Source: Calditrichota bacterium (GTDB lineage Bacteria; Zhuqueibacterota; Zhuqueibacteria; Zhuqueibacterales; Geothermadaptataceae). From it: a stretch of DNA of 64,000 nucleotides. The stretch spans positions 248,001 to 312,000 of the forward strand of contig QQUE01000007.1 in assembly GCA_008501765.1 (NCBI GenBank), read 5' to 3'. The stretch's first letter is position 1. Each line of letters opens with the position of its first letter. Below the pieces are notes generated by a model. The model had not been told where the DNA came from. It saw only the letters and a list, made by a program, of their open reading frames with translations, and did not search any database. The position numbers and the translations under genes were made by a program. This document shows, one piece after another, positions 33,803 to 48,860 of this stretch.

Positions 33803-35203
33803 TTATGCAATCAACTCATGTTTTTTCTGAAATAACTTACTAAAAATGACAAATAAAAGTGCCGCGATAAACCACCCTGGCAATCCAAGAAAGAATATCT
33901 CAATATTAAAAATGATATTCATTGCAAAACAAGCGGCCAGGGAAATCACCCAGGTTAATGCCGCCCCCAAATTGAAAGATGATTGAACGACCTCAGCATA
34001 GTTACTTCTAAGACCCAGGCGCGGCAACAAATAAACGTCCATTAAAATAATGGCGCCCATCGGCATGAGAATGAGACCGTAGAGAGCAACAAAATTCAAA
34101 AGCTTCATCACCAGGGCTGGAAAACAGGATGCCAGCGTAGTAATCATGCCAACTACAAAAGTTACTTTCCAGGTTTTCCATTTCGGACGAATCGCCTGAA
34201 AGGCCAAACCAGCGCGATAAATTGTTGGATTAGCCGTTGTCCACCCTGCTATGATTACACAAATGGCCCCTGCAACCCCGGCTGCACGAAAAGCAACCTG
34301 CCCCGGTGCAAATTCCTGGCTAAAATTGGATTCCTGCAAAAACAAGGCGTAAAGAATGCCGGATGCCAACCAGGCGATATAATGCCCAACGTACATGCCG
34401 GTTGCCGAGGCGAAGCCGTATTGCCACTTTTTTGCATAACGTAAAATTGATAAATCAGCCATACCAATATGCATCGCCATATTACAAAACCAGGCGAAAA
34501 ACATAATATGCCAAAAAGTAAACTTTGACTGCCCCACAAGCGGAACTCCTGTCCAGATTTTCTCCTGTGCAACAGTCCAAAAATCAGATAAAGAATGCAC
34601 ACCCAGTTCAGGCAAGACAGCGATGGCGGCGGCGATAAATACCAAAATCATCCATGGTGCGGCTATGTTGGCGAAACTGGACACTTTATCGTAACCGAAA
34701 ATCGTCACAACTGTGGTTACGGAACCAACAGCCAGTACCGCGATTATCCAGCCGATGCTATTGGGATAAAAATCAGTGAGTGAAGGCATATCCATGTTGA
34801 ACGGAATGCCAATAGCGGTTGCGGAAACGGCAATCATCGAGCCGGCCAGAAAACAGAACATCAGGGCATTTACCAGATTGTAGATCATCGTTAATTTTGA
34901 GCCGGCAATTTTTTCAAGTTGAAAATACAACGTAATACGGTTTTTTACTGCAATTGGCGCACAAAGAAATGCCCAACTTAATACGGCAAGCAAATTACCC
35001 AGCAGCAATCCAAAAACCAGATCACCTGCCGATACCCCGTGGGCGACAAACAGAGGTCCAATTACAAATTCGGTCCCGGCTGTGTGCTCTCCTGTGTACA
35101 TCCCTAAAAATCGGCCCCAGCTCTTCCAATTGCTTTTGGGAACAGGCACCCTTTCAAATTCATCAACATGGTCGAGATGGGCGACAATGCCTTTCGTTTT
35201 CAT
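33803..35203 (-). CDS. NCS1 family (purine-cytosine permease-like) transporter
   Basis: A 466-aa membrane protein with about 12 helices. It has the NCS1 N-terminal pattern SWGRFLGMYTGEHTAGTEF, a GLLLGNLLAVLSWAF helix and the sodium/substrate-site helix near GWTTANPTIYRAGLAF. The family moves nucleobases, hydantoins, allantoin or thiamine precursors with a cation. The ATG at 35203 is preferred (GAGG upstream); an in-frame TTG at 35218 is the alternative. It is divergent from the DeoR regulator and the BMC operon across a shared 195-bp region, so it may be under the same regulator. Its substrate is unknown; no sugar permease is nearby. Confidence 0.85.
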   Translation of the reverse strand: MKTKGIVAHLDHVDEFERVPVPKSNWKSWGRFLGMYTGEHTAGTEFVIGPLFVAHGVSAGDLVFGLLLGNLLAVLSWAFLCAPIAVKNRITLYFQLEKIAGSKLTMIYNLVNALMFCFLAGSMIAVSATAIGIPFNMDMPSLTDFYPNSIGWIIAVLAVGSVTTVVTIFGYDKVSSFANIAAPWMILVFIAAAIAVLPELGVHSLSDFWTVAQEKIWTGVPLVGQSKFTFWHIMFFAWFCNMAMHIGMADLSILRYAKKWQYGFASATGMYVGHYIAWLASGILYALFLQESNFSQEFAPGQVAFRAAGVAGAICVIIAGWTTANPTIYRAGLAFQAIRPKWKTWKVTFVVGMITTLASCFPALVMKLLNFVALYGLILMPMGAIILMDVYLLPRLGLRSNYAEVVQSSFNLGAALTWVISLAACFAMNIIFNIEIFFLGLPGWFIAALLFVIFSKLFQKKHELIA

Positions 35204-35263
35204 ATTTGGTATCCTCAACCCTCAATTTAAAATACGTGATTTATTTAAGGAAATAAGTTAATA

Positions 35264-35398: not shown

Positions 35399-36211
35399 AT
35401 GTTGACGCACGCCCGACATCAACAAATCATAGAAATACTTGCTGTGAAAAAATCCGCTACCGTTAGCGAATTAAGTGAGCAATTGACCGTTTCTTCCGCA
35501 ACAATTCGAACGGATTTAAATCAATTGGCAAAATATGGCCATGTTATTCGCATCCATGGTGGAGCCCGGATTGGAAAAGAGCGTGTACGCCAGGAATTCA
35601 GTTTTGCGACACGGCAGAATATCAATGCTGATAAAAAACAAGCCATTGCACACGCAGCGGCATCGTTGATTCAACCGATGGATTCCATATTATTGGATGC
35701 AAGCTCTACCTCGGTTGCACTGGTAAGTGCCATTAAGAAAAGAACGGATTTACATGATCTAACCGTCGTTACCACAGGTATCTGGACAACGCTTGAACTG
35801 CTTGGTTCGCCCGAAATTAATGTTGTTCTTGCGGGGGGATATGTTCGCAACACATCTGGTTCGATTTCCGGCCAAATCACCGTCGAAATTCTAAACAAAT
35901 TTAATTTTCAGAAAGTTTTTCTCGGCGCGGCTGGAATTTCAGAGATCGCAGGCGCCACGGATGTGCACTTAATCGAAGTCGAATTAAAACAGACCATAAT
36001 TGATCGCTCCGCCAATGTCATTCTCATGATCGACAGCAGTAAATGGGGAAAGCTTAGTTTAGCTACATTTGCAGAACTCGATAAAATTACAATGATCATC
36101 ACGGATGATGATGCTCCCAGGGAAATGGTCGATCAATTTCGACAGCAAAATATTGAAATTATTTGTGCTCCTTTGATTAAAAATTCTGCAGGTGTTATGA
36201 AAAATGGCTGA
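35399..36211 (+). CDS. DeoR family transcriptional regulator (BMC operon)
   Basis: A 270-aa regulator. The N-terminal winged helix shows HARHQQIIEILAVKKSATVSELSEQL then SSATIRTDLNQLAKYGHVIRIHGGA, the DeoR HTH signature. The C-terminal DeoRC sensor domain (about residues 75-255) has LDASSTSVALVSAI and VFLGAAGISEIAGATD and binds sugar phosphates. It is the first gene of the plus-strand BMC operon and overlaps the kinase gene by 8 bases. It probably represses the operon until a phosphorylated intermediate such as rhamnulose- or fuculose-1-phosphate appears (inference from family and context). Confidence 0.93.
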   Translation: MLTHARHQQIIEILAVKKSATVSELSEQLTVSSATIRTDLNQLAKYGHVIRIHGGARIGKERVRQEFSFATRQNINADKKQAIAHAAASLIQPMDSILLDASSTSVALVSAIKKRTDLHDLTVVTTGIWTTLELLGSPEINVVLAGGYVRNTSGSISGQITVEILNKFNFQKVFLGAAGISEIAGATDVHLIEVELKQTIIDRSANVILMIDSSKWGKLSLATFAELDKITMIITDDDAPREMVDQFRQQNIEIICAPLIKNSAGVMKNG

Positions 36212-37634
36212 CAGAACAGTTATTTCCATCGACCTAGGCGCAGAATCCGGCCGGGTGATGGCTGTAAAATTTAATGGACGTAAACTCGCAATCGAAGAAT
36301 TGCATCGATTTTCCAACACGCCAGTATTGATTCACAATACTTTATACTGGGATTTTTTGAGGCTCTGGCATGAAATTCAGGTTGGATTGTCGAAAGCAAA
36401 ACGATTGAAACCAGCAAGTATTGGTGTCGACACCTGGGGTGTTGACTTTGGCTTGTTGAACGCACAAGGCCATTTAATCGGGAATCCAGTTCATTACCGG
36501 GATAAGCGTACAATTGATGTTATGGAAAGCTGTTTTTTAAAGCTCTCCAAATCGGAGATATATTCCAGAACGGGGATCCAATTTCTGCCGTTCAATACTT
36601 TCTACCAACTTGTGAGTTTGATAGAAAATCAACCCCAGGAAATAGCCATTGCAGACACATTTTTAATGGCGCCGGATCTTATAAATTATTGGTTGACCGG
36701 CGCTAAAAAATGTGAATATACAATTGCGTCAACCACACAACTCCTGAATGCCAAAAGTGGTAATTGGGATTTTGACCTTTTAGATCAATTTTCGATCCCC
36801 AAAGAAATTTTTCCGGAAATAGTGCAACCTGGGACAAAATTGGGTTTATGGGAAAGTATCCCGGTTATCGCCTCAGCTTGCCACGACACGGCAAGCGCTG
36901 TTGCAGCCGTGCCCGCCGCTGATTTCGAATATGCTTATATTAGCAGCGGAACCTGGAGCCTGGTAGGATTAGAAACGCCGGAACCTGTGATAAATTCTGA
37001 ATCGCTGCGACTCAATCTCACCAATGAAGGCGGTGTATTTAATACTTACAGGCTATTAAGCAACGTCATGGGGCTTTGGATTCTGCAGCAGGCACGAAAT
37101 CAGTGGAAAACTCAAGGCAATGATTTTACATATGCTGAATTAGCATCACAGGCATCGCAGGCCGCACCGCTTCGTTCGTTAATAAAACCAGATGATCCTG
37201 TATTTTTGCCACCGGGTGACCATGCGCAAACAGTGGTTGATTTCTGCAAAAATAGCAATCAAATTCTGCCTGAATCGCAGGGTGAGATTGTTCGCAGTAT
37301 TCTTGAAAGTTTAGCTCTAGCTTATAAAGATGTGATTGCGCGATTGATCAGATTAACCACGAGAAAGGTCGAGCGCATTCATATCGTCGGTGGTGGCTCG
37401 CAAAATGCGTTATTAAATCAAATGACGGCTGATGCGACAGGTAAAGATGTTGTTGCGGGACCTGCTGAAGCAACGGTAATCGGCAATGCACTGGTGCAAC
37501 TGATCACACTCGGGGATTTGAAAGATTTAAAAGAAGCCAGAAATGTGGTGGCAAAGATGGATGAGTTAAAACATTATTATCCACAAAATAACGCTGCTTG
37601 GGAAGATGCCTTTTCCCGTTATAAACAGCTCTAA
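36204..37634 (+). CDS. rhaB: FGGY carbohydrate kinase, rhamnulokinase-like
   Basis: A 476-aa FGGY kinase. Rhamnulokinase hallmarks are IDLGAESGRVMAVKF (residues 8-22), WGVDFGLLNAQGHLIGNPVHYRD (about 80-102, two stretches), PFNTFYQL, ISSGTWSLVGLE and the ATP-site HIVGGGSQNALLNQMTADATG. It would phosphorylate L-rhamnulose (or L-fuculose) at C1, feeding the aldolase at 44074. There is no rhamnose or fucose isomerase gene in the window, so the ketose must be made or imported elsewhere. It overlaps the DeoR gene by 8 bases and precedes the first shell gene by 34 bases. Confidence 0.88.
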   Translation: MADRTVISIDLGAESGRVMAVKFNGRKLAIEELHRFSNTPVLIHNTLYWDFLRLWHEIQVGLSKAKRLKPASIGVDTWGVDFGLLNAQGHLIGNPVHYRDKRTIDVMESCFLKLSKSEIYSRTGIQFLPFNTFYQLVSLIENQPQEIAIADTFLMAPDLINYWLTGAKKCEYTIASTTQLLNAKSGNWDFDLLDQFSIPKEIFPEIVQPGTKLGLWESIPVIASACHDTASAVAAVPAADFEYAYISSGTWSLVGLETPEPVINSESLRLNLTNEGGVFNTYRLLSNVMGLWILQQARNQWKTQGNDFTYAELASQASQAAPLRSLIKPDDPVFLPPGDHAQTVVDFCKNSNQILPESQGEIVRSILESLALAYKDVIARLIRLTTRKVERIHIVGGGSQNALLNQMTADATGKDVVAGPAEATVIGNALVQLITLGDLKDLKEARNVVAKMDELKHYYPQNNAAWEDAFSRYKQL

Positions 37635-37668: not shown

Positions 37669-37965
37669 ATGGAATTAGCACGTGTGCAAGGCACTGTAGT
37701 TTCGACGATAAAAGCAGAAAAATTATCAGGCTGCACGCTTTTGGTAGTCAATATTTTGAATTCTGATGCCACACCGAGTGAAAAGCATCTCATCGCAATA
37801 GATTCGGTTGGAGCAGGGACAGGCGAAGTTGTACTGGTCGTGCGAGGCAGTTCAGCACGACAAACACAAGATTTAAAGGATGTGCCAACCGACTGCAGTA
37901 TCGTTGCAATCGTTGATTCAGTGGAGTTGCAGGGAAAGATTGTTTATGCTAAAAATAAAAATTAA
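37669..37965 (+). CDS. BMC-P shell vertex protein (EutN/CcmL), copy 1
   Basis: A 98-aa pentamer-forming shell protein. It starts MELARVQGTVVSTIKAEKL and has the family core LIAIDSVGAGTGEVVLVVRGSSAR (about residues 45-68, two stretches) and IVAIVDSVEL. Five copies make each vertex of the icosahedral compartment. Its C-terminus is slightly longer than copy 2. AGAAG precedes the ATG. It is the first of three different BMC-P genes in this operon. Confidence 0.95.
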   Translation: MELARVQGTVVSTIKAEKLSGCTLLVVNILNSDATPSEKHLIAIDSVGAGTGEVVLVVRGSSARQTQDLKDVPTDCSIVAIVDSVELQGKIVYAKNKN

Positions 37966-37976
37966 AGATTGAAATC

Positions 37977-38240
37977 ATGAAACTTGGCTTAATCATCGGT
38001 AAAATTTGGTCAGCGAAAAAAGATAAACAGCTTGATGCGCTAAAAATGTATTTACTCCAGCCGGTTGATGAAAACAAAAAATCCTGTGGACAGGCTCTGG
38101 TAGCTATCGACAGTATTGGTTCAGGTGCGGGCGATCTGGTTTACTGGGTTAGCGGCGCAGAAGCCATGTTTCCTTTTAAAAACAGAATAATACCATCGGA
38201 TGCAACTATCGTTGGAATTGTTGACCGTGTTAATTTATAG
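37977..38240 (+). CDS. BMC-P shell vertex protein (EutN/CcmL), copy 2
   Basis: An 87-aa vertex protein beginning MKLGLIIGKIWSAKKDKQLDALKM, with VAIDSIGSGAGDLVYWVSGAEA in the core and TIVGIVDRVNL at the end. It is the shortest copy. It starts 11 bases after copy 1 stops and is followed by the repeat element at 38340-38510. It diverges clearly from copies 1 and 3, so the three are not recent duplicates. Confidence 0.95.
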   Translation: MKLGLIIGKIWSAKKDKQLDALKMYLLQPVDENKKSCGQALVAIDSIGSGAGDLVYWVSGAEAMFPFKNRIIPSDATIVGIVDRVNL

Positions 38241-38570: not shown

Positions 38571-38861
38571 ATGATACTTGGCAAAGTTATTGGCTCGATT
38601 ACTTCAACAGTAAAACATGATTGCTATAAAAACAAGAAACTCCTTTTGGTGAAACCAATCACATCAAAACTGGAGGAAAAACCTGGAGTTCTTGTCGCGG
38701 TTGACGTGGTTGGGGCGGGAAAAAATGACATAGTTCTCGTGGCATCAGAAGGAAAAGCGGCATCAGAGCTTTTGGAGTTTAACTGTCTCATGCCGTTACG
38801 AAGTATTGTTATAGCCATTGTTGACAATGTGCAAATAAACACGCCTGCTATAAATTCGTAA
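38571..38861 (+). CDS. BMC-P shell vertex protein (EutN/CcmL), copy 3
   Basis: A 96-aa vertex protein starting MILGKVIGSITSTVKHDCYKN, with VAVDVVGAGKNDIVLVASEGKAA (about residues 43-65, two stretches) and VIAIVDNVQI. It is the third distinct pentamer protein in the operon and is separated from copy 2 by the inverted-repeat element. It is followed by the RpiB-like gene after 36 bases. Confidence 0.95.
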   Translation: MILGKVIGSITSTVKHDCYKNKKLLLVKPITSKLEEKPGVLVAVDVVGAGKNDIVLVASEGKAASELLEFNCLMPLRSIVIAIVDNVQINTPAINS

Positions 38862-38897: not shown

Positions 38898-39611
38898 ATG
38901 GAAATGCAACCTGACGAGATCGAACAACTCATCACCTCGATAACCGAAAAAGTGGTAAAAAATATTTTTCAGAAGCTCTCCCCTGCCATCGTTGAGACTG
39001 GAACGGAGGCGATTAGAAGGCAGATAATAAATCAAAATTTAATCACTGAAGCCAATGCTATAAACGCTTTTAAAAATAAGGCTACCCATATTCGAATCGG
39101 AAAGAACGCACTCATCACCCCGTTGGCCAAAGATTATTTACAGATGAAAAATATCCAAATTGAACAACAGGTTATAGAGTCCTGCCCAAAAAACTCAAAT
39201 TCAATTGTTCAGAACTCTGTAAACAAAATCGCAATCCTGGCGCCGAACTGCAGCCGAAGTGAAATTGATATTATTGCAGGTGAGATCAAGAAATACAATT
39301 ATTCATCGCACCATCTGCAAAAGATTCGTGGATTTGGAATTGATTTGAAGATGTCGGTAAAACTGATCGCTGAACATATTATAGCCGGCCAATTTCGAGC
39401 GGCTATCGTATTGGATGAATCAGCTTTTTCACTAAAAAATACCATTCGGCACCGCAACGGAATTCAAACCACCATGTGTTGGGATGTGGCTTGCACCAGT
39501 TCTTGTCAGGAAAGTTGTGAAACGAATATGCTATTTATAAACAATCGATTACTTGGATTCAAAAAGCTTGCATCGGTCACTGAAAACTGGTTAAAAACTT
39601 TTAAAACATGA
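38898..39611 (+). CDS. RpiB/LacAB-like BMC-associated protein, degenerate active site
   Basis: A 237-aa protein. Residues 6-27 form an amphipathic helix (IEQLITSITEKVVKNIFQKL) like a BMC encapsulation peptide, joined by a linker to a domain (about residues 110-237) with the layout of ribose-5-phosphate isomerase B. It has KIAILAPNCS at the start, a middle helix-strand AGQFRAAIVLDESAF, and the end NMLFINNRLLGFKKLASVTENWL like the VLALGARVIG...WL end of RpiB. The catalytic Cys-Gly-Thr-Gly loop and the phosphate-binding Arg/His residues are replaced, and a Cys cluster CWDVACTSSCQESC appears. It is therefore probably not a normal isomerase. It overlaps the PduS-like gene by 4 bases (ATGA). Confidence 0.7.
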   Translation: MEMQPDEIEQLITSITEKVVKNIFQKLSPAIVETGTEAIRRQIINQNLITEANAINAFKNKATHIRIGKNALITPLAKDYLQMKNIQIEQQVIESCPKNSNSIVQNSVNKIAILAPNCSRSEIDIIAGEIKKYNYSSHHLQKIRGFGIDLKMSVKLIAEHIIAGQFRAAIVLDESAFSLKNTIRHRNGIQTTMCWDVACTSSCQESCETNMLFINNRLLGFKKLASVTENWLKTFKT

Positions 39612-40930
39612 AATTTGTTGACAAAATAAAAATGAACGGCGTTGTAGGTGCAGGCGGCGCGGGTTTTCCGACACATATTAAAATGGCGGCAGAAGTTGAT
39701 TGGCTCCTTGCCAACGGTGCTGAATGCGAACCGTTAATGTGTAAAGATAACGAATTAATGATTCATTTTGCCGACGAAATCATTCGGGGTATGCAGTACG
39801 CAGCAGAATCTGTTCAGGCTAAGCAATGTGTGATCGGCATTAAATCTAAAAACAAAGAAGCAATTCACTCACTGCGCTGTGCAATAAAAAAGTCGAATTT
39901 GTCGATAATTATCCATGAATTTGAGGACTACTACCCTGCCGGTGATGAATACGAGATTGTCGCCACGATAACTGGAAAACCCATACCGGCCGCAGGAATT
40001 CCGTTGGATGTTGGTGCGGTTGTCTGCAATGTCGAATCGCTTTATAATATTTCAAATGCGATGAAAAACAAACCGGTAATCGATAAATTTCTAACGATCG
40101 CCGGCGAGGTAAAAAACCCTATAACAGTTTCTGTTCCAATTGGCACATCTTACGAAGACCTGCTTGCTCTCGCCGGGGGAACAAATTTGAACACACTTGC
40201 AATCTGCGAAAATGGTCTTATGATGGGTAGCTTCACCAAAGATTTGCAAAAATATGTGACAAAACAAACCGGCGGAATTGTAATCCTTCCGGAGACCAGT
40301 CAGTTGGTTAAGCGATCCCAAAAAACACTTCCTGAAATGCACAGGATCGGCCAATCGGCCTGCGACCAATGTAACTATTGTACCGAGCTTTGCCCACGCT
40401 ATCTTTTAGGGTACGATATTCAGCCACACTTAGTGATGCGCAGCCTCGGATTCACGGCCATGGGAACAGATTATTGGAGTGAATACGCCTCATTATGCTG
40501 CAAATGTGGTTTGTGCACGCTCTACGCCTGTCCGGAAAACCTATTTCCGCGTGAAGCTTGCATTCAATCCATTAAAAATTTATCACCGCAGGCACACACT
40601 GATTCTAAGAAAGCACAAGTCATAAAATTGCATCCGATGCGATCCTCACGACACGTATCGAGCCAAATGTTAATGCAACGACTTGGGGTGACCAAATATG
40701 ATATCGCAGCAAAGTATAAATCGACATCCTTCCACCCTGGTACGGTAAAGATTCCGCTTCTTCAACATACTGGGGTTCCTGCAAAACCAATCGTAAACAT
40801 TGGAGATAAGATTAAAAGAGGGCAACTGATAGGCTCAATCCCCGAAGATGAACTGGGGAGTCCAATTCACGCAAGTATTGACGGAACAGTCCGTGAAATT
40901 GGCGCCGAGTTTATTGCTATAACAAGGTAG
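39608..40930 (+). CDS. PduS-like (RnfC-type) flavin and iron-sulfur electron carrier
   Basis: A 440-aa protein. The NADH/FMN-binding domain begins GVVGAGGAGFPTHIK (about residues 11-25) and has LLANGAECEP and YPAGDEYEIV. An SLBB domain lies around residues 155-215 (ITVSVPIGTSYEDLLALAGG). Two 4Fe-4S motifs follow: CDQCNYCTELCP (about 252-263) and CCKCGLCTLYACP (about 300-312). A lipoyl-like C-terminal hairpin ends the chain. PduS in propanediol compartments moves electrons across the shell. Since no alcohol dehydrogenase is encoded here, this protein may reoxidise the NADH made by the aldehyde dehydrogenase (inference). Confidence 0.9.
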   Translation: MKFVDKIKMNGVVGAGGAGFPTHIKMAAEVDWLLANGAECEPLMCKDNELMIHFADEIIRGMQYAAESVQAKQCVIGIKSKNKEAIHSLRCAIKKSNLSIIIHEFEDYYPAGDEYEIVATITGKPIPAAGIPLDVGAVVCNVESLYNISNAMKNKPVIDKFLTIAGEVKNPITVSVPIGTSYEDLLALAGGTNLNTLAICENGLMMGSFTKDLQKYVTKQTGGIVILPETSQLVKRSQKTLPEMHRIGQSACDQCNYCTELCPRYLLGYDIQPHLVMRSLGFTAMGTDYWSEYASLCCKCGLCTLYACPENLFPREACIQSIKNLSPQAHTDSKKAQVIKLHPMRSSRHVSSQMLMQRLGVTKYDIAAKYKSTSFHPGTVKIPLLQHTGVPAKPIVNIGDKIKRGQLIGSIPEDELGSPIHASIDGTVREIGAEFIAITR

Positions 40931-40956: not shown

Positions 40957-41520
40957 ATGAAAGCACAAAAAAAGCACACAGCTATAGGGCTCATTGAAGT
41001 TTCCAGCATTGCCGCAGGAAAACTTGTTACGGATACCCTGCTAAAAACATCGAATGTGCAGTTACTCCTTTCAAGATCCATTTGTTCTGGCAAATATATG
41101 GTTATGATATCAGGCGCTGTTGCCGAAGTTAAGGCCAGTGTTGATGCTGGTGTTGAAAAGATGGATGGTTTTGTCATTGACTCAACTGTGATTGCCAATA
41201 TTCACCCGGATGTTTTAAATGCTATTTCCGGAACAACACCGAAGAATGAATTAATATCGCTTGGAATCATTGAATCATTTTCTGTGGCGTCCCTGATTAA
41301 AGCTGCAGATGAGGCGGCTAAATCTGCGAATGTTGAATTGTTGGAAATACGTCTGGCTATGGCGTTAGGCGGCAAAGCATTTGTCACCTTAACAGGGCAT
41401 GTTTCCGACGTTCAGTTGGCCGTTGACCGCGGAGCGGATGTGGTAGCCAAAAAGGGTTTGCTCGTCAATAAAGTTGTCATTCCTGCACCGAGACCGGAGT
41501 TGTTCAACGATTTTATATAA
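40957..41520 (+). CDS. BMC-T shell protein (tandem BMC domain trimer)
   Basis: A 187-aa protein with two BMC domains. The first (about residues 8-90) has AIGLIEVSSIAAGKLVTDTLLK and GAVAEVKASVDAG; the second (about 97-180) has LGIIESFSVASLIKAADEAAKSANVELLEIRLA and GHVSDVQLAVDRGADV. Three copies make a pseudohexamer facet tile. No Cys is placed at a central pore, so an Fe-S pore as in PduT is unlikely. It is 26 bases after the PduS-like gene, which matches the PduS-PduT pairing of known systems. Confidence 0.95.
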   Translation: MKAQKKHTAIGLIEVSSIAAGKLVTDTLLKTSNVQLLLSRSICSGKYMVMISGAVAEVKASVDAGVEKMDGFVIDSTVIANIHPDVLNAISGTTPKNELISLGIIESFSVASLIKAADEAAKSANVELLEIRLAMALGGKAFVTLTGHVSDVQLAVDRGADVVAKKGLLVNKVVIPAPRPELFNDFI

Positions 41521-41574: not shown

Positions 41575-42255
41575 GTGAAAGATTCGACTGTAGAATCCAA
41601 AATTGATACATACCAACTACGCCAAGCCGTAGAAAATATTGTCCGGCAAGTTGTGCAATCCGCACTCGCAGATGAAACTAAACTCTATGTCCCGATAGAA
41701 GTTTCAGCCAGACATGTGCATATATCTAAAAATGATCTTGAGATTCTTTTTGGTCCTGGCTCAAAGCTGACAAAATACAAAGATTTGAAACAACCGGGTG
41801 AATTTGCGGCAAACGAAACCGTTACGGTTGTCGGGCCTAAAAACAGAATTGTCGAAAATATTCGCATTCTTGGCCCCATCCGTCAAAAAACACAAGTCGA
41901 ATTATCCTATTCTGACGGCATTCATCTGGGCATCGACTTACCGCACAGATTGTCGGGGGACTTGCAAAAATCTGCCCCGGTAAATCTTATCGGTCCCCGG
42001 GGAATTCTGCAGCTCCGTGAGGGCGCTATTCGTGCCATGCGACACATACATATGAGCACGGAATTAGCCCGGCAATGGAATTTATTCCAGGGACAGAAAG
42101 TCAAAGTCCGTACGCATGGGCCAATGCAAGTCACCTTCAATAATTCAGTAATACGCATCGGCGAAGGATTGAAATTAGCTATGCACATTGATACAGATGA
42201 AGCGAACGCCGCTGGAATTCAGTCAGGTGAATTCGGCGAAATTATAGTCGAGTAA
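41575..42255 (+). CDS. pduL: PduL-type phosphate acyltransferase
   Basis: A 226-aa phosphotransacylase. After an N-terminal amphipathic helix (LRQAVENIVRQVVQSAL, residues 15-31) likely to be an encapsulation peptide, it shows the zinc motif VSARHVHIS, the core QPGEFAANETV, LGPIRQKTQVELS, the second zinc motif MRHIHMS and HIDTDEANAA. It turns acyl-CoA and phosphate into acyl-phosphate, here probably lactyl-CoA to lactyl-phosphate. The start is GTG at 41575, the only start that keeps the helix. It lies between BMC-T and the aldehyde dehydrogenase. Confidence 0.95.
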   Translation: MKDSTVESKIDTYQLRQAVENIVRQVVQSALADETKLYVPIEVSARHVHISKNDLEILFGPGSKLTKYKDLKQPGEFAANETVTVVGPKNRIVENIRILGPIRQKTQVELSYSDGIHLGIDLPHRLSGDLQKSAPVNLIGPRGILQLREGAIRAMRHIHMSTELARQWNLFQGQKVKVRTHGPMQVTFNNSVIRIGEGLKLAMHIDTDEANAAGIQSGEFGEIIVE

Positions 42256-42297
42256 TAAAGGACCCTTCTCGAAGAAGTTGTTTTTGGGAGTTTGACA

Positions 42298-43725
42298 ATG
42301 CAAGTAGATAATCAACTGATTGATAAAATAGTCAGCGATGTTTTAATTAAACTCGATGAAAATCCAGAGATAAATGCTGGCAGGATTCTTTCCAGCACGA
42401 CGCAAAGTGCAGTTTTCGAAAATGTTGAGGATGCTATAAATGCAGCCGCTTTAGCTCAGAAAAAGTGGGTAAATACCCCAAAAAGTATTAAAATAAAAGT
42501 GATCGAAGCGCTGCGCCAATCCATGCATGAAAATGCAGAGGAATTTGCACGCCGTTCGTTGAGTGAAACAGGCATGGGCAGACTCGAGGACAAAATTGCA
42601 AAACACCGTAATGCCGCAGATGCAACACCGGGACTTGAAGATTTGGAAACGCGTTCCTGGGTTGGCGATCATGGAACGACGTTCGAGCAGCTCGCGCCTT
42701 ATGGAATTATTGCTGCAATTACACCATCGACACACCCAATTCCGGTAATGTTGAACAGTACGATAATAATGATCGCTCCGGGAAATGCTGTGGTATTCAG
42801 TGTGCATCCAGCCGCGAAGAGTACATCTGCCTATGCCATAGAAATTTTTAATAACGTTATAGTGGAGAATGGCGGTCCCCCCCACCTCATTTCTATGTTA
42901 AAAGAACCTTCAATGGACAATGTAAATGAATTATTCCACCATAAAAAAATCGATCTGATAGCGGCAACCGGCGGCCCGGCGTTAGTCAAAGCCGCTTTCG
43001 CAGTCGGTAAAAAAGTAATAGCTGCCGGGCCAGGTAATCCCCCGGTTTTGGTGGACTCTACGGCTTGCTTATGTTCGGCAGCACGGCATGTGATTGATGG
43101 CGCCTCGTTCGATAATAACATCTTGTGTATTGCCGAAAAAGTAACTTTCGTTTTAAATGAAGTATTTGATCAATTTATGGAGGAAATGGAACAACAGGGT
43201 GCATATCGCCTCAATAAAATTCAAATTGCACAACTCACAGAAAAAGCACTAACGAATGATGCAAAAGGGACGATATTTGGACATCCTGACTTTATCGGTA
43301 AAGATGCGCATGTATTAGCGAAAGCCTGTAAATTGGAAATATCGAATCAAGTCCGTCTGCTTTACGGTGAAGTTTCAGCGAAGCATCCCTTTGTAATTGC
43401 AGAACAAATGATGCCATTTATGCCGGTTGTCCGGGTGAATTCCTTTGCCGAAGGAATCGAAGAAAGCCTAAAAGCTGAGCACGGTTTCGGACACACAGCC
43501 ATGATTCACTCTAATAATCTTGAAAATATCACAAACTTTACCAAAGCAATTGATACAGATATTGTGGTTGTAAACGGGCCCTGTGTCTCTGGAAATGGGC
43601 CAAATGCTGGCGAAGGTTATTTTTCACATACGATTGCCAGCCCGACCGGAGAAGGTGTTTGCACGCCGCGGGATTTTGCGCGCGTACGCAGACTTGCAAT
43701 TTACGATGCATTGCAAATAGTTTAA
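42298..43725 (+). CDS. CoA-acylating aldehyde dehydrogenase (PduP/EutE-like, BMC lumen)
   Basis: A 475-aa enzyme. The N-terminus NQLIDKIVSDVLIKL (residues 5-19) is an encapsulation-peptide-like helix. The catalytic domain has IIAAITPSTHPIP, GPGNPPVLVD, and the catalytic Cys in SFDNNILCIAEK (about residue 275). It oxidises an aldehyde to acyl-CoA with NAD+ and CoA; with the aldolase here the substrate should be L-lactaldehyde. The ATG at 42298 follows GGGAG at good spacing; an in-frame TTG two codons earlier is less likely. It belongs to the PduP/EutE branch, not the hydrolytic ALDH branch. Confidence 0.95.
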   Translation: MQVDNQLIDKIVSDVLIKLDENPEINAGRILSSTTQSAVFENVEDAINAAALAQKKWVNTPKSIKIKVIEALRQSMHENAEEFARRSLSETGMGRLEDKIAKHRNAADATPGLEDLETRSWVGDHGTTFEQLAPYGIIAAITPSTHPIPVMLNSTIIMIAPGNAVVFSVHPAAKSTSAYAIEIFNNVIVENGGPPHLISMLKEPSMDNVNELFHHKKIDLIAATGGPALVKAAFAVGKKVIAAGPGNPPVLVDSTACLCSAARHVIDGASFDNNILCIAEKVTFVLNEVFDQFMEEMEQQGAYRLNKIQIAQLTEKALTNDAKGTIFGHPDFIGKDAHVLAKACKLEISNQVRLLYGEVSAKHPFVIAEQMMPFMPVVRVNSFAEGIEESLKAEHGFGHTAMIHSNNLENITNFTKAIDTDIVVVNGPCVSGNGPNAGEGYFSHTIASPTGEGVCTPRDFARVRRLAIYDALQIV

Positions 43726-43770: not shown

Positions 43771-44058
43771 ATGACACAAGAAGCCTTGGGAATGATAGAA
43801 ACACGTGGATTTGTTGGTGCCATCGAAGCTGCCGATGCAATGGTCAAAGCCGCACACGTAACACTTGTTGGAAAAGAGACAATCGGTGGGGGCCTGGTAA
43901 CGGTGATCGTACGTGGCGATGTTGGCGCAGTAAAAGCCGCCACTGACGCCGGGGCGGCCGCTGCAGAAAAAGTGGGTGAACTGGTTGCGATTCATGTTAT
44001 TCCACGTCCGCATGTTGATGTTGAAGCTGTATTGCTGGGCAAACCTGTCAAAAAATAA
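43771..44058 (+). CDS. BMC-H shell protein (hexamer)
   Basis: A 95-aa single BMC domain, [24 protein letters not shown] at the start (two stretches), with the hexamer edge Lys region [45 protein letters not shown] and the tail [16 protein letters not shown] in ETIGGGLV lines the central pore. It is the only BMC-H gene in the operon and would make most of the facets. GGAG precedes the ATG. Confidence 0.97.
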
Positions 44059-44848: not shown

Positions 44849-46042
44849 ATGAAAATCCTTGTTTGCAATGTCGGTTCCAGCAGTTTAAAAATGAAATTGC
44901 TTGATATGCGTACCGAGACAGTTCTGGCGAATTGTATAATTGAAAGAGTTGGACATGAAAACGCGGTGACTCGTATTTTTATTGGCACCAGGAAAGTCAT
45001 TAATAAGGAATCTTCGATTAAAAATTATTCTTCCGGGATAAAAACTGTTCTGGAATATTTACTCGATTCCCGATTTTCAATTATAAACAATCTGAATGAA
45101 ATTTCCGCAGTTGGATTTAAAACAGTTCAGGCAGGTGATAAAAACGGCACTGTTTTGGTCACGGATGAAATAATTCAGGCAATGGAAAACTTCACCGGGC
45201 TGGCCCCGGCACACAATCCCCCGTATTTACAAGCCATCGATGTATTCCGCAATTTATTGCCACAAATCCCGCTCGTTGGTGTTTTTGAGCCCGGCTTTCA
45301 CATAAATGCACCAACTTATGCAAAAGTATATGGCACTCCGATCGATTGGTTGGAAAATCATGGTGTGAAAAAATATGGTTATCACGGCGCTTCGCACCAG
45401 TATATTTGGGATAAAACACGTGAATTATTGAACCAGCCAAAGAAACACAAAATCATTTCCTGTCACCTGGGTGGCTCAACATCATTATGTGCGATTCACG
45501 ATGGAATTGCCATCGATACATCCATGGGATTTTCACCGCAATCCGGAATTATTCAAGGCACACGAATTGGCGATTTCGATCCCTACATCTTACCCTATAT
45601 TATGAAAAGAAAAGGATTAACCCTGGAAGAAGCGCTTGCAAACTGTTCAGAAAATGCCGGATTGGCAGGCTTGTCCGGGACATCCGGAGATATGCGTGAT
45701 ATCAACGCTGAAATTAAAAATGGGAGCAAGCGCGCAAAATTAGCACGAGAAAAATATATTTATGATATAAAACGCTATATCGGCGAATACCTGGTTTTGA
45801 TGCAAGGATTGGATGCACTTACGTTCACGGGTGGGATTGGGCTGAAGGATTCAGATTTACGCCAGACGATCACTGCAAGTCTCGCCTTTTTGGGATGTAA
45901 ATTGGATTTAAGCCAAAACAGAAATCACGATCAAAAAATATCAGCATCTGACTCGAAAATCTCTGTTTTTGTTTTAGAAACAAATGAAGAACTCATTGTT
46001 GCACGTGAGACACAAAAACTCTTGTTTGGGAAATCAGCATGA
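44849..46042 (+). CDS. Acetate-kinase-family enzyme, divergent (probable lactate/propionate-type kinase)
   Basis: A 397-aa ASKHA-fold kinase of the AckA family. Conserved are NVGSSSLK (residues 6-13), LAPAHNPP, KKYGYHGASH, SCHLGGSTSLCAI, GTRIGDFDP and TNEEL. Two usual active-site positions differ: the GHRVVHGG segment with substrate Arg reads GFKTVQAG (Lys), and FDTAFH with the catalytic Asp reads FEPGFH (Glu). This suggests a changed acyl substrate, consistent with lactyl-phosphate in this pathway. It makes ATP by substrate-level phosphorylation. It starts one base after the aldolase stop and overlaps the next gene by 4. Confidence 0.88.
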   Translation: MKILVCNVGSSSLKMKLLDMRTETVLANCIIERVGHENAVTRIFIGTRKVINKESSIKNYSSGIKTVLEYLLDSRFSIINNLNEISAVGFKTVQAGDKNGTVLVTDEIIQAMENFTGLAPAHNPPYLQAIDVFRNLLPQIPLVGVFEPGFHINAPTYAKVYGTPIDWLENHGVKKYGYHGASHQYIWDKTRELLNQPKKHKIISCHLGGSTSLCAIHDGIAIDTSMGFSPQSGIIQGTRIGDFDPYILPYIMKRKGLTLEEALANCSENAGLAGLSGTSGDMRDINAEIKNGSKRAKLAREKYIYDIKRYIGEYLVLMQGLDALTFTGGIGLKDSDLRQTITASLAFLGCKLDLSQNRNHDQKISASDSKISVFVLETNEELIVARETQKLLFGKSA

Positions 46043-46806
46043 AATCTCTTGAGCGACCAAGTCCAAAAGGCAAAAAAGTATCCCTTTTTGTGACTTGTCT
46101 CATCAATCGCATTTTCCCGGAAACCGGATTTTCTGTTGTAAAAATACTCGAGCACTGTGGAGTTGAAGTTGAATTTTTAACTCGGCAGACTTGTTGCGGC
46201 CAGCCGGCATACAATGGAGGCTACCACAAAGAAGCAAAGAGTGTGGCACGCGAGTTTTTAAAATTGTTTAAAGATGCTGAAGTAATCGTCACCCCATCCG
46301 GATCCTGTGCAGCCATGCTGCGTCACGAATATCTCAATTTGTTCGAAAAAGATTCCCGCTGGTCTCCCCTGGCACGACAAATTTCCCAGCGCACCTGGGA
46401 GCTGAGTGAATATCTTGTCGATGGACTCGGTGTCCAGGATTTAAATTCGGAACTTGCATCCCCCCAAAATTTTGCCATTCACGATAGTTGCCATGGTTTA
46501 CGATTGTTGAACCTGGGTTCGCAAGTGAGAAGCCTTATTTCCAATATTAAAAATGCAACCTTGGTGGATTTAATGGAAAGCGACCATTGCTGTGGGTTTG
46601 GTGGATTGTTCAGCATTAAAATGGCAGATGTGAGTGGTGCGATTCTCCGTAAAAAAATTGCATCGATTAATGAAACTGAAGCTGATACCATTCTCGTTGG
46701 CGATTCAAGTTGTTTAATGCACATAAACGGTGGACTTGAAAAACACGGTCTATCAAAACGAGTATGCCATTTTGCGGATGTATTAGCAGAAAGCTTGCCG
46801 GTTTAA
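46039..46806 (+). CDS. lutA: LutA/LldE-like (Fe-S)-binding lactate oxidation subunit
   Basis: A 255-aa protein with two CCG domains: TCCGQPAYNGGY (about residues 53-64) with the earlier CLINRIFPETG, and HDSCHGLRLL plus CCGFGGLFSIKM (about 180-195). This is the LutA/LldE pattern. With LutB and LutC it oxidises L-lactate to pyruvate. ATGA overlap with the kinase gene shows that it is part of the BMC operon, so lactate produced by the pathway can be taken on to pyruvate. Confidence 0.93.
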   Translation: MKSLERPSPKGKKVSLFVTCLINRIFPETGFSVVKILEHCGVEVEFLTRQTCCGQPAYNGGYHKEAKSVAREFLKLFKDAEVIVTPSGSCAAMLRHEYLNLFEKDSRWSPLARQISQRTWELSEYLVDGLGVQDLNSELASPQNFAIHDSCHGLRLLNLGSQVRSLISNIKNATLVDLMESDHCCGFGGLFSIKMADVSGAILRKKIASINETEADTILVGDSSCLMHINGGLEKHGLSKRVCHFADVLAESLPV

Positions 46807-46807
46807 A

Positions 46808-48244
46808 ATGAAGCTGCACGCACATAAATTTATCGATACCGCCCAAAAAGCTATCAACAATCCCAACTTACAGTCTGCGGTTGATATTGGGACTAAACTT
46901 GCATCGGACAAACGAGATAAATCCCTGTTTGCTGATGGAATCGAGCACGGTGAGAAAATGCGAGATCAGGCTGCGGCCATTAAAAAACGCTGTTTAAACC
47001 AGTTGCCCGGTCTCCTTGAAAAAGCGGAAGCCAATATGATCGCCAATGGCATTAAGGTTCTTTGGGCCAGCGAGGCGGCTGAAGCCAATGAGCAGGTTTT
47101 GGAAATTGCACGAAATCACCGGTGCTATTTGGCTGCCAAAAGCAAAAGTATGGCGACCGAAGAAACCGGGCTAAACGAATACTTGGAAAGCGCCGGGATT
47201 GAAGTCGTTGAAACCGATCTCGGAGAATTCATCGTCCAGCTCTGTGAAGAAACGCCAAGCCATATCGTCGTTCCAATTGTCCACAAAACAAAAGCCAGTA
47301 TTCGCGATACCCTCATAAAAAAAACCGGCATGCCCTATACAGACAGTACAGATGAAATGACTCGCTTTGCCAGGACTTATCTTCGTGAAAAATTTTTGCA
47401 GGCTGATCTGGGGATTTCCGGAGGGAACTTCATTATTGCGGAGACAGGCTCATTGGCATTGGTGACAAACGAAGGCAATGGCAGGATGGTAACCAGTTTG
47501 CCCAATGTGCATGTGGCGCTTGTTGGCATCGAAAAAATAATCGAAACCGTCGAAGATTACGCAACGCTGACACAAATTCTTCCTCGAAGCGCAACGGGTC
47601 AAAGTTTGACCACCTACACGCAAATGATCAATGGACCACGGCATCCGGAAGAAACAGATGGGCCAAAACATGTTTATGTCATTTTCCTTGATAATGGACG
47701 TAGTTCGATTTATACGAGCAAATTTGCCGATTCACTGCCATGTATTCGGTGTGGCGCTTGTTTAAATGCCTGCCCGGTGTATCAGGTAACAGGGGGGCAT
47801 GCTTACGGCTGGGTGTATCCGGGGCCAATTGGCTCAATTTTAACGCCATTATTTAATGGCTTACAAAACGCAAAAGTTTTGCCCGATGCGTGTAGTTTAT
47901 GCGGGAAATGCAAAGAAGTTTGCCCAGTAAAAATTGATCTTCCACGCATGCTTCTCGAATTACGACACGAGACCGTCGATAGAAAATTGAGCAATAAATT
48001 GTGGGATATAGGGATAAAACTATGGGCTGCAATAAACAAATCTCCCAAAATGTATCAGATTTCCGGGAGAATCGGAGCATCAATGTGCCGTGTCTGGCCT
48101 TTTCAAAATTATCCCTGGCCAATTAATCGATGGACAAAATACCGGTCGATCCCACAATTAAAAAATAAATCTTTTACTAATTTGTGGATGGAAAGACAAT
48201 TAAAGCAGGAAAAAAATGACAGACAGCCGTACAAAGATTCTTAA
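46808..48244 (+). CDS. lutB: LutB/LldF-like iron-sulfur lactate oxidation subunit
   Basis: A 478-aa protein. The LutB/LUD domain holds LGISGGNFIIAETGSLALVTNEGNGR (about residues 200-225, two stretches), LPNVHVALVGIEKI, and LPRSATGQ. Two 4Fe-4S motifs follow: CIRCGACLNACPVY (about 312-325) and CSLCGKCKEVCPVK (about 360-373). It carries electrons between LutA and LutC during lactate oxidation. It starts one base after lutA, and its end overlaps lutC by 29 bases. Confidence 0.95.
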   Translation: MKLHAHKFIDTAQKAINNPNLQSAVDIGTKLASDKRDKSLFADGIEHGEKMRDQAAAIKKRCLNQLPGLLEKAEANMIANGIKVLWASEAAEANEQVLEIARNHRCYLAAKSKSMATEETGLNEYLESAGIEVVETDLGEFIVQLCEETPSHIVVPIVHKTKASIRDTLIKKTGMPYTDSTDEMTRFARTYLREKFLQADLGISGGNFIIAETGSLALVTNEGNGRMVTSLPNVHVALVGIEKIIETVEDYATLTQILPRSATGQSLTTYTQMINGPRHPEETDGPKHVYVIFLDNGRSSIYTSKFADSLPCIRCGACLNACPVYQVTGGHAYGWVYPGPIGSILTPLFNGLQNAKVLPDACSLCGKCKEVCPVKIDLPRMLLELRHETVDRKLSNKLWDIGIKLWAAINKSPKMYQISGRIGASMCRVWPFQNYPWPINRWTKYRSIPQLKNKSFTNLWMERQLKQEKNDRQPYKDS

Positions 48245-48860
48245 TAAATTACGTTCGGCAGCAACGAACCAAAGTCAAGTTGAGCACAATATAAAACACG
48301 CAGCGATGGTGCCACCGGAATCTTTGGGAAATTCGCTCACCGATAAATTTATTACAGAAGCCAAAAAACTGTCCTGTATTGTTCATCTGATTTCAAGTGA
48401 AAGACATGCAAAAGAAACAATTTTAAGCATAATTGCCCCGGACGCCGAAGTTCTGGCATGGCAGGATGATCGATTGCCATTGAAAAATTTAAGAAAATTC
48501 TTGGCTGAGAATGGAGTTGTGGTGACCGCATCGGGGAATCCGCATGTCCGGGTAGGAGTTACCGGTGTTGATGCAGCGCTCGCAGCAACAGGGAGTCTTG
48601 CGTTCTGCAGCGAAACTGGAAAAGATCGCCTCACTTCCCTGCTGCCTGAAGTTCATATTGCGCTTGTCTGCAAGAATCAAATCATCCCGGATTTGGAAAG
48701 TTGGTTTGCCCAGAAAAAGAAATCCGGTTTAGAAAATATACGTAAATCTGGTAATATTGTATTTATTTCTGGACCGAGCCGCACTGCAGATATCGCCATG
48801 GAGCTTATTCTCGGAATGCACGGTCCACGGGAAGTGCATATTTTGTTGTTTGAATTTTGA
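48216..48860 (+). CDS. lutC: LutC/LldG-like lactate oxidation subunit
   Basis: A 214-aa LUD-domain protein. TGVDAALAATGSLAFCSETGKDRLTSLLPEVHIALV (about residues 108-143, several stretches) and ISGPSRTADIAMELILGMHGPREVHILLF are the LutC signatures. It completes the LutABC complex. It is the last gene of the BMC operon; it converges on pcm with only 5 bases between stops and no clear terminator. The overlap of 29 bases with lutB suggests translational coupling. Confidence 0.94.
   Translation: MTDSRTKILNKLRSAATNQSQVEHNIKHAAMVPPESLGNSLTDKFITEAKKLSCIVHLISSERHAKETILSIIAPDAEVLAWQDDRLPLKNLRKFLAENGVVVTASGNPHVRVGVTGVDAALAATGSLAFCSETGKDRLTSLLPEVHIALVCKNQIIPDLESWFAQKKKSGLENIRKSGNIVFISGPSRTADIAMELILGMHGPREVHILLFEF

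Follow-up and report, generated by a model that had tools for sequence, protein, structure and literature searches.

Why should a BMC locus keep an RpiB-like gene when its pathway has no need of an isomerase? The question is raised by a 237-residue protein encoded at 38898-39611 on the forward strand of the window, the 64,000-nucleotide stretch of a Calditrichota bacterium contig (QQUE01000007.1) that was analysed. Also on the forward strand, the gene is preceded by a DeoR-family regulator (35399-36211), a rhamnulokinase-like sugar kinase (36204-37634; TIGR02627 E 3e-157, just below cut-off) and three BMC-P (EutN/CcmL) pentamer genes (37669-37965, 37977-38240 and 38571-38861), the third lying immediately upstream of it. 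Downstream, again on the forward strand, follow a PduS-like FMN/4Fe-4S oxidoreductase (39608-40930), a double-BMC shell protein (BMC-T, 40957-41520), a PduL phosphotransacylase (41575-42255) and an aldehyde dehydrogenase (AldDH, 42292-43725), the latter two with N-terminal EP-like (encapsulation-peptide) helices, a BMC-H shell protein (43771-44058), a class II aldolase (PF00596, 44074-44847) with a C-terminal EP-like helix, an acetate kinase (44849-46042) and LutA/LutB/LutC-like lactate oxidation genes (46039-48860; LutC by position and a partial match). The BMC-T is PduT-like, and electrons are probably passed through the shell at its ICSGK pore Cys motif together with PduS. All three BMC-P genes of the genome lie in this locus, which is single-copy. 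Adjoining it on the reverse strand (33803-35218) is a 471-residue protein that is transporter-like by eye and has no NCBIfam match.

The locus is best explained as a class II aldolase (rhamnose/fucose-type) metabolosome. It has AldDH, PduL, PduS, an RpiB-like protein, class II aldolase and acetate kinase in common with the 'SPU-like' loci of two Latescibacteria (Axen et al., 2014; PMC4207490), whereas it lies in a probable KSB1 genome and adds rhamnulokinase and the lut genes; in the portion of that paper on which we draw, catalytic loss, EP and TP modules are not discussed for SPU-like loci. The SPU BMC itself (Sutter, 2021; PMC8217296) is defined by a DeoC aldolase (PF01791) together with PF02502, and the PF00596 aldolase places the focal locus outside that definition. 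With the PVM BMC of Planctomycetes and Verrucomicrobia it shares the class II aldolase, DeoR regulator, acetate kinase and several BMC-P genes, but the PVM type is described with a lactate/malate dehydrogenase, whereas the focal locus has PduS and a PduT-like BMC-T.

The open reading frame is real, and its product is arranged as EP helix, linker, TP module and pseudo-RpiB domain. For comparison we used eight syntenic orthologues (G000, G002, G032, G033, G046, G052, G056 and G057), aligned with active relatives. Orthologous contigs carry the labels Calditrichaeota CLD5 and candidate division KSB1, and the window is accordingly assigned to KSB1 by inference; in the contig search for orthologues a three-row alignment gave matches, a single-protein scan gave none and an eight-row alignment was too diverse. 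The N-terminal targeting helix proposed in the earlier note is borne out by prediction: residues 5-27 (EIEQLITSITEKVVKNIF...; 38910-38978, +) form an EP-like amphipathic helix in the AlphaFold2 model, with a helical moment z of 2.2, conserved in the eight orthologues and in short homologues and similar by eye to PduM 1-20. The TP module, about 45 residues long (46-90, QNLITEANAI...IRIGKNALITPLAKDYLQMKNIQIEQ; 39033-39167, +), matches EutQ 1-45 and the C-termini of PduM and of TIGR02536, the last covering focal residues 35-89 in NCBIfam (E 7.9e-8). Residues 108-235 (39219-39602, +) make up the pseudo-RpiB domain, recognised by PF02502, Foldseek and residue losses. Its RpiB layout, proposed from the sequence in the earlier note, is supported by Pfam, where PF02502 passes its cut-off of 24.7 with 27.2 bits, the match being confined to residues 153-234. 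In the AlphaFold2 model (mean pLDDT 82.7) helix 5-27 stands free, residues 41-90 form a compact segment of strands and helices (pLDDT about 90) and residues 110-235 an alpha/beta domain; the alignment used contained active RpiBs and so may favour the RpiB fold. A Foldseek search of this model against the PDB placed RpiB first (E 4.5e-6, TM by target 0.73), and matches 1-32 all belong to the RpiB or LacAB family. The gene does overlap the start of the PduS gene as ATGA (39608-39611); relatives keep the adjacency of the two genes, but not the overlap. Used as a profile against the PDB, the EP-TP alignment yielded chance matches only. A distant similarity to TM0875/DUF3855 (E 0.02 against Pfam, 0.34 against the PDB) was set aside, since it appeared neither in the Pfam scan of TP-bearing relatives nor in the PDB profile search.

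The neighbourhood of the gene indicates which part of the protein is constant. The family profile also matched proteins that cover focal residues 2-94 only. The slot between the third BMC-P gene and PduS, followed by BMC-T and PduL, holds an EP-TP-pseudo-RpiB protein in eight genomes; five genomes from a single sister family (G023, G047, G053, G058 and G081) have in it a protein of about 105-125 residues that ends after the TP module and has no RpiB domain. Since the slot is filled with or without the RpiB domain, its constant part is EP plus TP. TP was found in 52 of 61 KSB1 genomes with BMC-P and in 1 of 21 without (Fisher p 3e-11, uncorrected for relatedness). It also stands N-terminally on active RpiBs whose genes lie apart from BMC genes, and a planctomycete (L116) encodes an EP-TP-RpiB protein with intact catalytic motifs, so that all three parts do occur together in what looks like an active enzyme. 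The planctomycete protein and the isomerases of EP-TP-RpiB or EP-RpiB type in BMC loci of Actinobacteria (L119, L121-L126) share the same domains and a CWD motif with the focal protein, but retain the catalytic residues that it has lost.

The TP module links the focal protein to two known assembly factors. TP profiles were built from KSB1 sequences only and searched against the proteins of the operons to which EutQ and PduM belong, together with 200 shuffles of each protein (Z=4300). Among the E. coli Eut proteins, the full profile placed EutQ 1-45 first (E 3e-7 at Z=4300; hhalign E 2e-8), and among the Salmonella Pdu operon proteins the C-terminus of PduM (126-162; E 1e-5, hhalign E 4.6e-6). 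Sub-profiles restricted to the short proteins, to the RpiB-like set or to RpiBs whose genes lie outside BMC loci all put EutQ 1-45 (E 7e-5 to 8e-7) and the PduM C-terminus (E 1e-5 to 1.6e-3) at the top. With some TP profiles a single PduA shuffle scored E 8e-4 to 7e-3, and the weakest PduM values of the sub-profiles (1.6e-3 and 2e-4) are therefore unconvincing alone; the N-terminus of EutT, though similar, was not significant with TP profiles (E 0.47). Reciprocally, the NCBIfam EutQ and PduM models match short EP-TP proteins, and one short homologue (L073) reaches 23.9 bits with PF15953, just under the cut-off of 27. The focal protein itself has no match to PF15953 in Pfam or to TIGR04493 (PduM) in NCBIfam, and none to the cupin PF06249 in Pfam, and it is because of the missing cupin that it is not filed as EutQ.

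Both factors act between shell and core. In Salmonella EutQ, residues 9-41 bind the shell and 62-99 bind cargo EPs, the C-terminal cupin is dispensable for assembly and the protein is dimeric through its C-terminal domain (PMC12487888). EutQ of the Salmonella and E. coli EUT1 BMC thus has in common with the focal protein the TP (EutQ 1-45), a further amphipathic helix of cargo type and an enzyme-like C-terminal domain, in EutQ one that assembly does not require; the order there is TP, helix, cupin, whereas the focal protein runs EP, TP, pseudo-RpiB and lacks the cupin. For PduM, residues 1-23 are a signal sequence targeting the core, core and shell come partly apart when the protein is lost, and according to the authors no homology outside Pdu is known for it (PMC12108088, PMC9132943). 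PduM of the Salmonella Pdu BMC (PF15953, TIGR04493) likewise combines an N-terminal EP, similar by alignment only, with a C-terminal TP; its gene adjoins a pentamer gene, and its structural role in core-shell linkage is the one proposed here for the focal protein, but its middle segment is different and it ends after TP.

By analogy with these two linkers, the focal protein is probably a shell-cargo assembly adaptor and not an enzyme or a metal protein. PduL, AldDH and the aldolase bear helices similar to the EP (5-27), and by way of these the EP would attach to the enzyme core. The TP module (46-90), a homologue of the EutQ H1/H2 segment, would dock on the shell interior. The adaptor would thereby hold core and shell together, a task performed by EutQ in Eut compartments and assisted by PduM in Pdu compartments; these binding steps are modelled on EutQ and PduM. 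The C-terminal RpiB domain would be a passenger without catalytic activity, which may serve for oligomerisation or as a spacer. The earlier note had offered a scaffold as one of two roles, and that suggestion pointed in the right direction, the conserved part being the targeting helix and a module common to the shell-core linkers EutQ and PduM. To our knowledge, class II aldolase chemistry (the route to lactaldehyde) needs no RpiB-type aldose-ketose phosphate isomerase, and constraint on the RpiB domain would thus be relaxed; the isomerase domain may have decayed or been dropped when the BMC switched to the class II aldolase pathway. An adaptor role would explain the retention of an RpiB-like gene by BMC loci whose pathway needs no isomerase. 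Several points count against it. The order EP-TP is unlike that of EutQ, where TP precedes the cargo helix, though it is the same as in PduM. TP also occurs C-terminally on PduL and N-terminally on active RpiBs encoded outside BMC loci, and so may be a general encapsulation tag and not a linker. Finally, the Pdu shell link runs mainly through PduB 1-37, and direct contact between PduM and PduB has been doubted (PMC12108088).

With more reserve, we suggest that TP could be a common shell-docking module, and that EutQ, PduM, TIGR02536, the EP-TP mini-proteins and the pseudo-isomerase might form one class of EP+TP adaptors on which enzyme domains (cupin, flavoprotein-like, RpiB) were repeatedly hung, some then decaying. 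If this is true, PduM, reported to lack homologues outside Pdu, has relatives across many BMC types. Core-shell tethering of metabolosomes is known in two enterobacterial systems, through EutQ and PduM, and in the titles and abstracts of papers naming both proteins none presents them as linked. A shared module of about 45 residues, natural minimal forms of about 105 residues and a dead-enzyme version together suggest a general linker class, and the EP-TP parts are directly testable for BMC engineering. The module shared with EutQ and PduM and the pseudo-isomerase appear to be new; the SPU-like locus type was already described in 2014.

Judged by its residues, the C-terminal domain is almost certainly a pseudo-isomerase, because catalytic and phosphate-binding residues are lost in all eight orthologues. 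The DH pair, YPD, the His of SREHN and the C-terminal GRHxxR are absent from every one, the C-terminal phosphate-binding segment is deleted, and the glycines of the anion loop are gone save one position in one sequence; the active RpiBs compared have the same motifs, with minor variation in standalone RpiB. The earlier note had a CGTG-type loop replaced by VLDESAF (39408-39428, +). The catalytic loop is indeed lost family-wide, but the nearest active relatives are BMC-type RpiBs, in which this decayed anion-hole loop reads IIDGAGVGS; because the ancestral form is DGAGVGS and not CGTG, the D of VLDESAF is ancestral and it is the glycines that were lost. Likewise, the phosphate-binding Arg/His series, said to be gone, has lost GRHxxR and His in 8/8 orthologues, but R217 of NxR (ancestral GxR) is kept in 7/8 and the series is therefore not wholly gone. 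The eight orthologues form one clade (100/99) with branches roughly ten times as long as in active relatives, several end branches measuring 1.7-5.6 against mostly 0.1-0.5 in active enzymes, and these long branches make the placement of the clade among active RpiBs unsure. The focal protein is the one PF02502 protein found in the genome, which also encodes RpiA, so the housekeeping isomerase reaction is covered; that the protein is not an isomerase, as the earlier note had suggested, agrees with all of this.

The protein might also be plain encapsulated cargo, with EP and TP as mere targeting tags and the RpiB domain in a new ligand-binding or catalytic role. E174 is derived and is E or D in 7/8 orthologues, N215 is derived from an ancestral Gly and kept in 7/8, and they are found alongside the ancestral N210 and R217; since these derived residues are mostly kept, the domain is not simply junk and some constraint remains, which also counts against reading it as a dead passenger. 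TP, moreover, tags real enzymes such as PduL and active RpiB. We nevertheless hold this role to be unlikely, given that the slot protein lacks the RpiB domain altogether in five sister genomes and that, with the anion loop, His, YPD and C-terminal GRHxxR all lost, no catalytic motif is left. Less probable again is an oligomerisation core, in which a pseudo-RpiB dimer would make the EP-TP adaptor divalent, comparable to the dimeric EutQ cupin. RpiB folds are dimeric, and EutQ dimerises through its C-terminal domain, but short EP-TP forms manage without any such domain; as a refinement, this role is compatible with the adaptor.

The earlier note's other role, a metal or Fe-S binding partner of PduS in electron transfer, is very improbable. 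It drew on the gene overlap with PduS and on four Cys within 14 residues, and the spacing C-x4-C-x3-C-x3-C is present as noted (C194, C199, C203 and C207; CWDVACTSSCQESC, 39477-39518, +). Such a cluster arises in 0.7% of shuffles of the focal protein, which is weak for a feature picked post hoc. Across the orthologues the Cys are not conserved: C194 is found in 4/8, C199 in 2/8, C203 in 1/8 and C207 in 3/8, all four occur in the focal protein only, and even the congeneric orthologue, the nearest relative, lacks C203 and C207; on this ground the cluster was rejected, as the earlier note itself had foreseen for Cys that vary among close relatives. In active BMC-type RpiBs the aligned stretch reads CWDVSSARNSREHN, and C194 aligns with a Cys found in every active RpiB compared, so that it is an ordinary residue ancestral to active RpiBs. 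The short slot proteins lack the Cys region altogether. The redox role of the locus is already filled by PduS, with its 4Fe-4S dicluster and FMN-binding domains, and by the PduT-like BMC-T, whose ICSGK pore motif is shared by the KSB1 BMC-Ts that were set against Salmonella PduT; both already bear Cys motifs for Fe-S clusters. Weakest of all is an active isomerase with relocated catalytic residues, which the retained RpiB fold and a PF02502 score just over cut-off might favour but which we rejected as hardly credible, with every motif position lost in eight orthologues, the C-terminal phosphate-binding segment deleted and no pathway need.

TP-bearing proteins were also seen elsewhere. A second KSB1 BMC locus type (L129, L130, L131 and L136), with a class II aldolase, PduS, three BMC-H and four BMC-P genes, has its own EP-TP protein of about 105 residues beside a pentamer gene. 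Many KSB1 genomes encode a PduL paralogue with a C-terminal TP (L127:1162-1932, L132, L133, L128, L134 and L135); one of them (G042, L135; 93% complete) is the only KSB1 genome with a TP protein, this PduL-TP, in which no BMC pentamer gene was detected. In TIGR02536, an uncharacterised ethanolamine-utilisation family of NCBIfam, the TP module lies at the C-terminus, and this family might provide a linker for Gram-positive EUT, where EutQ reportedly lacks the first three helices. A 'flavoprotein' on an Ilyobacter polytropus plasmid (L138:24280-24987), in the pduM position between pduL and an EutN gene, consists of an EP helix, a flavoprotein domain and a C-terminal TP, and matches both the TIGR02536 and PduM models. 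The TP stretch TPAARDLAKEHGI of L127 and L022 is weakly like the E3-binding domain (PF02817; E 8.5e-4 and 0.07), which may hint at a docking fold.
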